DNA of 61,091 nt from an uncultured Pelagibacteraceae bacterium (GTDB lineage: Bacteria; Pseudomonadota; Alphaproteobacteria; Pelagibacterales; Pelagibacteraceae). The translations under genes and the position numbers were made by a program. This document shows, piece by piece, positions 57,326-60,262 of the stretch. Position 1 is the first letter of the stretch; each line of letters opens with the position of its first letter. The stretch lies in contig CACBHY010000003.1 of NCBI GenBank assembly GCA_902539165.1, forward strand, positions 134,657 to 195,747, given 5' to 3'. Under the pieces are notes generated by a model. That model did not search any database. It was not told the DNA's origin and was given only the letters and a program-made list of their open reading frames with translations.

Positions 57326-57466
57326 GTGAATAAAGAAAACGCAAGTAAACTGTGGAAAATGATTCAGGAAGCCGGCGATTATTTGGGGGATTAGAGGGAC
57401 AATCTATTCTGCATTAAGCTGCATTATTCTACAGTACTTATGCGGATAGTAAAAAGTTAGTTTGAA
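57326..57466 (+). pseudogene. decayed copy of the small gene at 60035
   Basis: From the GTG at 57326, 20 codons are nearly identical in protein to the start of the intact gene (VNKENASKLWKMIQEAGDYL), then a frameshift and a TAG at 57392-57394 break it. After the break GAGGGACAA (57394 on) resumes the EGQ codons of the intact copy, and a vague likeness continues through TTATGCGG near 57440. The rest, to about 57466, is degraded. It is a duplicated remnant on the far side of the Z1 pair. Confidence 0.7.
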
Positions 57467-57501
57467 ATAAATCTCTTAAAGACTAATCAATTTAATCAAA
57501 A

Positions 57502-57545
57502 AACTCGATCACACACTCGACACAAAAGAGATAAATCAAAATAAG
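57502..57545. repeat. left copy of the direct repeat flanking the Z1 pair
   Basis: AACTCGATCACACACTCGAC followed by ACAAAAGAGATAAATCAAAA, 10 bp before the Z1 stop codon. It aligns with 59985-60030 over about 44 bases in the same orientation, sharing ACTCGACACA and AGAGATAAA. The whole stretch 57138-57554 holds only this repeat, the two remnants above and the MOSC 5' flank. Confidence 0.65.
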
Positions 57546-57554
57546 AAAAATTAA

Positions 57555-59471
57555 TTAGACATTTTCTTCTGTGGTAATAAAACTAATTTTTCCATGACGA
57601 CAATTATAGAATAGCCTACAGGAACCTTTTTTATTTTTAACTAAAACAAAATGATGTCTTGCATAAGGAAATTTATCATAATCTCGTGCACCAAATATAC
57701 CTCTTGATCTAGAGATAGATTCCCAATTAGCATATTTTTGATCATAATTTTCAATATTTTGAGATTGATGTATTGCAATATCCTTGCTGGGAACACCAGA
57801 AATTTCTTTTATGAAAGCCATTATATGTGCTGGTAAAAATTCATTACCAAATTTCTTAATCAAAAAATCTAAAGCTTCATGTGAGTCGTTAGAACCAGAA
57901 TATTTTTCAACTATTTCATCCATTTCAGGTTCATATTTAATTCTATTGAAACTCATTTCTCCTTTTTCAATATGCACTTGAGATTTGTCAATACTTGATG
58001 GTGATACTGCCTTTGTTCCCATTCCAGTAGCCCAACTAGGATGCATATTAGATCTTGCTGATAAATATGAAATTCTATGTAATAAAAAACATGTGTGCCA
58101 ACTATCCCAAAGATCACCCGGTATTGTTAACTCGAAGTGTTTCATATCCTCGTCATTTCTATTCCCAAACATTCTTGCTCTTTGAATATATGTGTCTTGC
58201 TGCATAAGACCTTTTACATTTCTGGTAAAAAACATTGATAACAAATTATTAAAGGTGATACCTCTAGAAATAATGTTTCCACCAATCGCAAAAGTAAATG
58301 GGTTAGTTGGTTCCTCTGTTAATAAAGGAAGTAAAACATCTTTGTTGGATGGCTCACTATTAAGAACTCCTATCAAATATTGACTCGAGTAATCAGCAAC
58401 ATATTCTGTAATTTCATCAGCAACATTTTCATTTTTAGATTTTTTTAATGCTTGAGTGTAAATAAGCTCCAAAACTTTATCATATCTTGGATTTTCAATC
58501 TTTTTTCCATTTTCATCATCGATTTCAGGTGTGGTTAAATCAGTCATTACTTCATCAACAACTTCTCTATCTTCATTATGCATCAACTTTCTTACATCTG
58601 TATGAACCAGCATAATATAATTTTTTTGTTTTTGTGTATTCACAAATAGATTTAGATAAGCAACGTTAACCATGAATCTAATTACGGCATCTCTTAATTC
58701 CTTTTTTGTGTTGCTACTTTCAGGTTCTAATTTTTTAAGATTGTAAATAATTTTATTTCCAGATTTTGGAGGAAAGAAAAAATCTTGGCCTCTATATCCT
58801 TTGTGAGGTTCAAAATAAACCCAGTGGTGATTTTCATTATTGAAAGTTCTATTGACATCAATTCTAATTGGTGTTGCAGTAACTCCTAAGTAAATTCCAT
58901 CATCTCCAATTAAATCATAAACTCTTTTATTGATCATTGTTCTTTCTTGATCACCTTTTTCATCTTTTTTATTTACTTTTGAATTTGGACTTGCAAAATC
59001 AGCCTCATCATCAATGATTACTTTATTTTTGATGTTTTCTACTTTATCGATTAGTCGTTTTAAATTACTTGAGTTTTTTTTACATATGACCACGAATTCT
59101 CTTCCCTCCAGCTTTACATCAGGTGGTATTACTTCTTGGTACATTTTTGGTGATGGTTTTAATGTTGATCTTTGAAATCTTAGAGAGTTTTGTTCTAATA
59201 AATTAAGATTATCTTGGATTAGTAAAATAACTAGTTTGTACCCTTCGTCTAGCATTTTTGCAGTTAACCCTATCATCATTGATGTTTTGCCACTTTGTGG
59301 CTCACCATAAATAACAAAAGACTTAGCTTTTTTATTTTTAATATTGGTTACTGCCTCTGAAATTGTATTTTCTATACTTTTGGTATCTATTTTATTCTCT
59401 TTTAAACTTTCTATATAGGTTTCGTACCTTTTTAAATTTTTTTTCTTATATTTGCTTGGATCAAAAACCAT
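57555..59471 (-). CDS. Z1-domain superfamily II ATPase/helicase-like protein
   Basis: 638 residues. Walker A is GEPQSGKTS (56-64), the DEAD-like motif II is IDDEADFA (153-160), motif III-like is GVTATP (196-201), GGNIISRGITF (397-407) and the arginine-finger motif QRARMFGNR (430-438) close the second RecA lobe. The C-terminal ~200 residues are the Z1-type extension (a WATGMGTKAVSPS segment). Known Z1 proteins sit in restriction-like operons with a MORC/HATPase, a PD-(D/E)XK protein, AIPR and a Dcm methylase; none of these is here. It is divergent from the 59491 gene by 19 bp. It probably translocates or remodels nucleic acid; a defence role is inferred. Confidence 0.8.
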   Translation of the reverse strand: MVFDPSKYKKKNLKRYETYIESLKENKIDTKSIENTISEAVTNIKNKKAKSFVIYGEPQSGKTSMMIGLTAKMLDEGYKLVILLIQDNLNLLEQNSLRFQRSTLKPSPKMYQEVIPPDVKLEGREFVVICKKNSSNLKRLIDKVENIKNKVIIDDEADFASPNSKVNKKDEKGDQERTMINKRVYDLIGDDGIYLGVTATPIRIDVNRTFNNENHHWVYFEPHKGYRGQDFFFPPKSGNKIIYNLKKLEPESSNTKKELRDAVIRFMVNVAYLNLFVNTQKQKNYIMLVHTDVRKLMHNEDREVVDEVMTDLTTPEIDDENGKKIENPRYDKVLELIYTQALKKSKNENVADEITEYVADYSSQYLIGVLNSEPSNKDVLLPLLTEEPTNPFTFAIGGNIISRGITFNNLLSMFFTRNVKGLMQQDTYIQRARMFGNRNDEDMKHFELTIPGDLWDSWHTCFLLHRISYLSARSNMHPSWATGMGTKAVSPSSIDKSQVHIEKGEMSFNRIKYEPEMDEIVEKYSGSNDSHEALDFLIKKFGNEFLPAHIMAFIKEISGVPSKDIAIHQSQNIENYDQKYANWESISRSRGIFGARDYDKFPYARHHFVLVKNKKGSCRLFYNCRHGKISFITTEENV

Positions 59472-59490
59472 AATTAATTATAATAACTTT

Positions 59491-59955
59491 ATGCCAATAA
59501 ATGAATACCAATTTTTTAATGGTGTTGTTTTAAATAATTTAGTTAGGAATGAACTAAATAAATTAAATAAGCCAATTAAATTGGATGTTTTTCCGTCTTC
59601 TGGAAATAATGCTTTCACAATAAATGATAAAAAAGTTGGTATTTATATAAAATACTCAAAAAAAATCATAAGCCCATGGAGATTTACATTTTTAAAAGAA
59701 CACCAGGATGAATTTAAAATAATGAATGAATTATGTGAAAATGCCTTTTTAATATTAGTTTGTAATAAGGATGGAATTGCCTCTATAAAATATAAGGATA
59801 TTAAAAAAGTTTTAGATGAACATCATGAAGAAGCTGAATGGATATCAGCATCTAGATTAAAAAGGCAAAGCTATGCTATAAAAGGATCTGATGGAAAATT
59901 GAAATTTAAAATCAATTTAAGAGATTTCCCAAGAGATATTGTTAAATGTTTGTAG
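59491..59955 (+). CDS. unknown conserved-looking partner of the Z1 protein
   Basis: 154 residues from the ATG at 59491; a TTG at 59452 is in frame but would overlap the Z1 start. I recognise no named family. Features are FFNGVVLNNLVR near the start, a DVFPSSGNNAFTINDKKVGI strand pair, IYIKYSKKIISPWRFTF, KEHQDEFKIM, FLILVCNKDGI, EWISASR and SYAIKGSDGKLKFKI. Alternating strands with a lysine in an IxIKY position faintly recall PD-(D/E)XK nucleases, but the acidic residue before the lysine is Tyr, so catalysis is doubtful. A substrate-recognition or sensor role for the Z1 ATPase is an alternative. Confidence 0.65.
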   Translation: MPINEYQFFNGVVLNNLVRNELNKLNKPIKLDVFPSSGNNAFTINDKKVGIYIKYSKKIISPWRFTFLKEHQDEFKIMNELCENAFLILVCNKDGIASIKYKDIKKVLDEHHEEAEWISASRLKRQSYAIKGSDGKLKFKINLRDFPRDIVKCL

Positions 59956-59984: not shown

Positions 59985-60030
59985 AACTCGACACTAACTC
60001 GACACAGAAGAGATAAAACAAGGATTTAAG
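59985..60030. repeat. right copy of the direct repeat flanking the Z1 pair
   Basis: ACTCGACAC occurs twice here (59986-59994 and 59997-60005), followed by AGAAGAGATAAAACAAGG. It matches 57502-57545 in the same orientation with scattered mismatches. It lies just upstream of the intact small gene at 60035, 29 bp past the stop of the 59491 gene. Confidence 0.65.
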
Positions 60031-60034
60031 TAGT

Positions 60035-60262
60035 TTGAATAAAGAAAACGCAAGTAAACTCTGGAAAATCATACAGGAAGCTGGCGATTATTTGGAAGGA
60101 CAATTGCCTGAACATCCAAATCATCCAAAAAGACGAAATCCTTATGCACATGTAGCACTTGCTGTTAAAGATAAATTTAATAGTAGTTACAAAGATATTG
60201 AAGATAATAAATTTGATGAAGTGGTTAATTACATAAATTATTTAAAGCAAAATCCTAGTTAA
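60035..60262 (+). CDS. small unknown protein (75 aa), intact copy
   Basis: 75 residues from a TTG start (GTG in the decayed copy at 57326). The protein reads NKENASKLWKIIQEAGDYLEGQLPEH, then HPKRRNPYAHVALAV and an acidic helix NKFDEVVNYINYL. It is soluble, probably helical, with a Pro/His-rich turn at 24-32. No family is recognised. It is duplicated around the Z1 pair, with the left copy broken. It ends 1 bp from the convergent threonine aldolase-like gene. It could be a small regulatory protein or a phage-derived gene. Confidence 0.55.
   Translation: MNKENASKLWKIIQEAGDYLEGQLPEHPNHPKRRNPYAHVALAVKDKFNSSYKDIEDNKFDEVVNYINYLKQNPS

Follow-up and report, generated by a model that had tools for sequence, protein, structure and literature searches.

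The window analyzed here is a stretch of 61,091 nucleotides from an uncultured Pelagibacteraceae bacterium (contig CACBHY010000003.1, assembly GCA_902539165.1, here G000). It contains a divergent gene pair encoding a Z1-type superfamily II (SF2) ATPase and a 154-aa partner. Judged from sequence, the pair lies in a cassette bounded by attachment-site-like (att-like) repeats at the start of a 75-aa host gene, here called g75. Transfer of this cassette between lineages is well supported. An earlier note on this DNA had suggested a compact mobile defence unit; the att-like cassette agrees with the mobile part, whereas an anti-phage function, with a DNA-binding partner and a motor as its mechanism, is inferred and has about an even chance of being correct.

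The divergent gene pair

The large protein matches the Z1 profile at 74.4 bits against a cut-off of 25. The motif DThhQXuRhFG, defined for Z1-type SF2 helicases in PMC2292703, has its counterpart in DTYIQRARMFG of the translation. The SF2 motifs are intact in the window protein and conserved across 53 aligned sequences, as expected of the full Z1 ATPase noted earlier. In a PADLOC search the protein scored 154.8 bits over residues 17-444, and two members tested scored 670 and 722 bits. Against NCBIfam MzaC it reached 45 bits, far below the cut-off of 1500.

The divergent arrangement is confirmed. The two start codons are 19 bp apart; the gap is 27 bp in G647 and 28 bp in G010. The genes around the Z1 gene encode, besides the 154-aa and 75-aa uncharacterized proteins, a MOSC protein, a cytidylate kinase and a lyase. 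As the earlier note said of the window, these neighbours include no methylase, and C5 methylase (PF00145) had no match in the window's assembly. The G010 pair differs in having a methylase next to it.

The 154-aa protein is predicted to adopt a RecU/Hjc (PD-(D/E)XK-like) fold. Pfam RecU was weakly matched by 18 of the 52 family members (best E 0.002), and the one RecU match set against its cut-off, in P0116, was 14.1 bits, under the cut-off of 25. When catalytic places were mapped from secondary structure and the known motif, rather than from superposed coordinates, the protein lacked the catalytic D and (D/E)xK acids of RecU/Hjc nucleases, the latter acid being absent in all 52 members. Residue 39 is N in 48 of 52; K54 and a Y or F at residue 52 occur in all 52. 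In the G1050 and Nostoc relatives residue 52 is A or L. The acidic residue 74 is lost in G1088, G1050 and Nostoc.

The cassette at g75

Judged by sequence, the element sits at one constant host position, with attachment-like repeats on both sides (Table 1). The g75 gene is present in 78 of 121 genomes, including that of the window, and a Pfam search with it gave no match. A truncated g75 copy lies to the left of the pair. It is one of ten such copies, spread over 7 genomes, whose break falls within nt 59-66 of g75. A 224-nt unit occurs 9 times across 6 of the 121 genomes, and cassettes also stand in tandem, as an array of two in G044 and of three in G024, where locus L073 displays three successive truncated copies.

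Table 1. Features of the cassette and its target gene in the window
Feature	Position	Strand	Remark
Truncated 5' copy of g75, left attachment-site core (attL-like)	57326..57386	+	57327-57386 93% identical to 60036-60095
Spacer, conserved among cassettes	57387..57503	+	From alignments
Left tandem arm motif CTCGATCAC/CTCGACACA, then GAGATAAATCAA	57504..57539	+	9-nt unit common to right arm
Large gene, Z1-domain ATPase	57555..59471	-	
Space separating the divergent start codons, 19 bp	59472..59490		
154-aa partner, predicted RecU/Hjc (PD-(D/E)XK-like) fold, without usual catalytic acids	59491..59955	+	
Right tandem arm motif CTCGACACT/CTCGACACA	59988..60021	+	
Intact 75-aa gene g75, first ~60 nt as right attachment-site core (attR-like)	60035..60262	+	

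The arms were compared by a script choosing the best tandem pair per arm; of the 12 elements examined, G782 and L130 were left out since the script located only one of their arms. In 8 of the 10 remaining elements the two arms carried an identical 9-nt unit, compared with 1 of 90 cross pairs and 0 of 20000 permutations; the exceptions were G024 cassette 2 (6/9) and G031 (4/9). The window and AG-426-K09 have near-identical cargo and different arm units, with both ends altered together. Upstream of g75 in L079, L084 and L075, differing secreted-protein-like genes share a near-identical start (MKKLLGIVVLGLL), as if gene starts had been reused.

Some cargo at this slot is defence-like. The Z1/154-aa pair is carried by 2 of the 10 cassettes. 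The G1133 cassette (L072, 5629-8730) encodes a protein of 1033 aa that is predicted to be of the type IIG restriction-modification kind (PADLOC 2.5e-142), and the last G024 cassette (L073) encodes two treble-clef proteins with DUF4379, whose DUF559 matches lie slightly over the cut-off.

Satellite-like contigs with a similar site

Pattern scans of viral contigs (IMG/VR) returned L092 and L093 at first, and then L092 and L130. L092, of 9070 bp with an exact terminal repeat of 29 nt, and L130, of 8983 bp with one of 98 nt, both look circular. Each contains a leader, the g75-like first ~60 nt, a spacer and, directly after it, an integrase gene (phrog_1, 1e-22 and 6e-26) whose start is overlapped by the arm repeats. 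By BLAST, positions 21-75 of the window unit match L092 at 93%, extending ~15 nt beyond the core. The first part of the window's spacer resembles the site of L092 and L130, as do repeated ~10-nt units in the spacers of other cassettes; further on, the spacer beside the integrase is closer to those of G1133 and G024 than to that of the window.

L092 also contains primase and RusA-like genes; L130, which shows translated matches to them, has a small-terminase/MerR-like gene (phrog_57, 1.7e-5). The proteins scanned (9 of 12 L130 open reading frames and 5 L092 proteins) gave no match to a capsid, portal, tail or large-terminase family. The two contigs are read as satellite-like elements, and their g75-like sequence as attP. 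Phage satellites similar to phage-inducible chromosomal islands (PICI), and marine virion-encapsidated integrative elements, integrate site-specifically at one host gene. The ~9-kb elements L092 and L130 share with them the integrase, and L130 also the small-terminase-like protein. In L093 (13892-14119, minus strand) an intact g75-like gene adjoins primase and RusA-like genes, which may mark the junction of a prophage or a case of gene capture.

A circle of this type integrating at g75 would leave the host 5' fragment and the spacer on the left, and the element leader with a replacement 5' end of g75 on the right, which is the arrangement observed. From the resembling sites we infer that the cassette may have followed such an integrase-driven route.

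Comparison with known systems

The Z1 operons of PMC2292703 encode the same SF2 helicase type, there too with a restriction-endonuclease-fold neighbour. Those operons also hold GHKL ATPases and frequently methylases, and their fold protein has E-D-ExK motifs; the window has only two genes, and in its partner the D and ExK places are not occupied by acids. Neither a methylase nor a PLD endonuclease stands beside the window's pair. RecU and Hjc Holliday-junction resolvases have the fold predicted for the partner and differ in the catalytic acids.

Hachiman (PMC12278908) follows the same two-gene logic of a helicase (HamB) and a nuclease-like protein (HamA), although the window partner is without the usual acids. 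The PADLOC-DB matches of the two window proteins, listed to an E of 1, included neither HamA nor HamB, in a library whose content of Ham models was unchecked. The helicase + DUF2290 system (PMC9122126, PMC10952713) combines a helicase with a small protein in a phage-satellite hotspot, and resembles the window pair in layout and setting.

Alternative explanations

Several observations weigh against a mobile defence cassette with a nuclease-fold partner. The unrelated Pfam family DapH_N was matched by 14 of 52 partner-family members (best E 0.0035), nearly equal to RecU; a profile search of PDB sequences returned no nuclease, and the 154-aa protein matched no PADLOC model. Among the 10 cassettes with truncated copies, DNA-targeting cargo was recognized in those of G000, G1131, G1133 and one of G024; of the rest, two cargo proteins were scanned, without a match. 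The integrase helper is known from two contigs only: the L092 integrase had one weak match among 130 genomes, and viral contigs scanned at the protein level yielded only L092 itself, in a scan that also missed L130 and is thus insensitive. Two SAR11 pairs lie away from g75, one in G010 and one in G647, the latter adjoining a recJ-like gene with no g75 seen nearby; other routes besides the g75 site therefore exist.

Movement itself could be explained otherwise, whatever the function: the repeats would be what is left of a satellite that integrated long ago, and homologous recombination between repeated leaders would exchange the cargo. Identity between the window and AG-426-K09 changes steeply near the arms (~57500, ~59950) rather than near nt 60 of g75, where the core lies. 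The last exchange may therefore have come about by homologous recombination, which the repeats around g75 would serve; moreover, in neither genome do the repeats enclose an integrase gene. Nevertheless, the nearly constant break of the ten copies, the matching arms within elements, the tandem arrays and the likeness to a site next to the integrase of L092 and L130 make this explanation doubtful. A restriction-type system with an active enzyme is unlikely. Such an enzyme without its own methylase is expected to be toxic, and a simple motif screen found no C5 methylase in 6 of 7 fetched loci; five neighbours scanned on a Calothrix plasmid gave a single weak methylase-like match (Eco57I, E 0.072). 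The missing (D/E)xK acid and the non-acidic residue 74 in three relatives argue the same way. It is also improbable that the pair serves excision or replication of the cassette rather than defence, as it is absent from the open reading frames of L092 and L130 and from most cassettes at the site, neither the phage collection nor the viral contigs yielded a relative of the 154-aa protein, and the other cargo includes the type IIG protein.

Insertion of such a cassette would supply g75 with a new leader and new first 20 codons.
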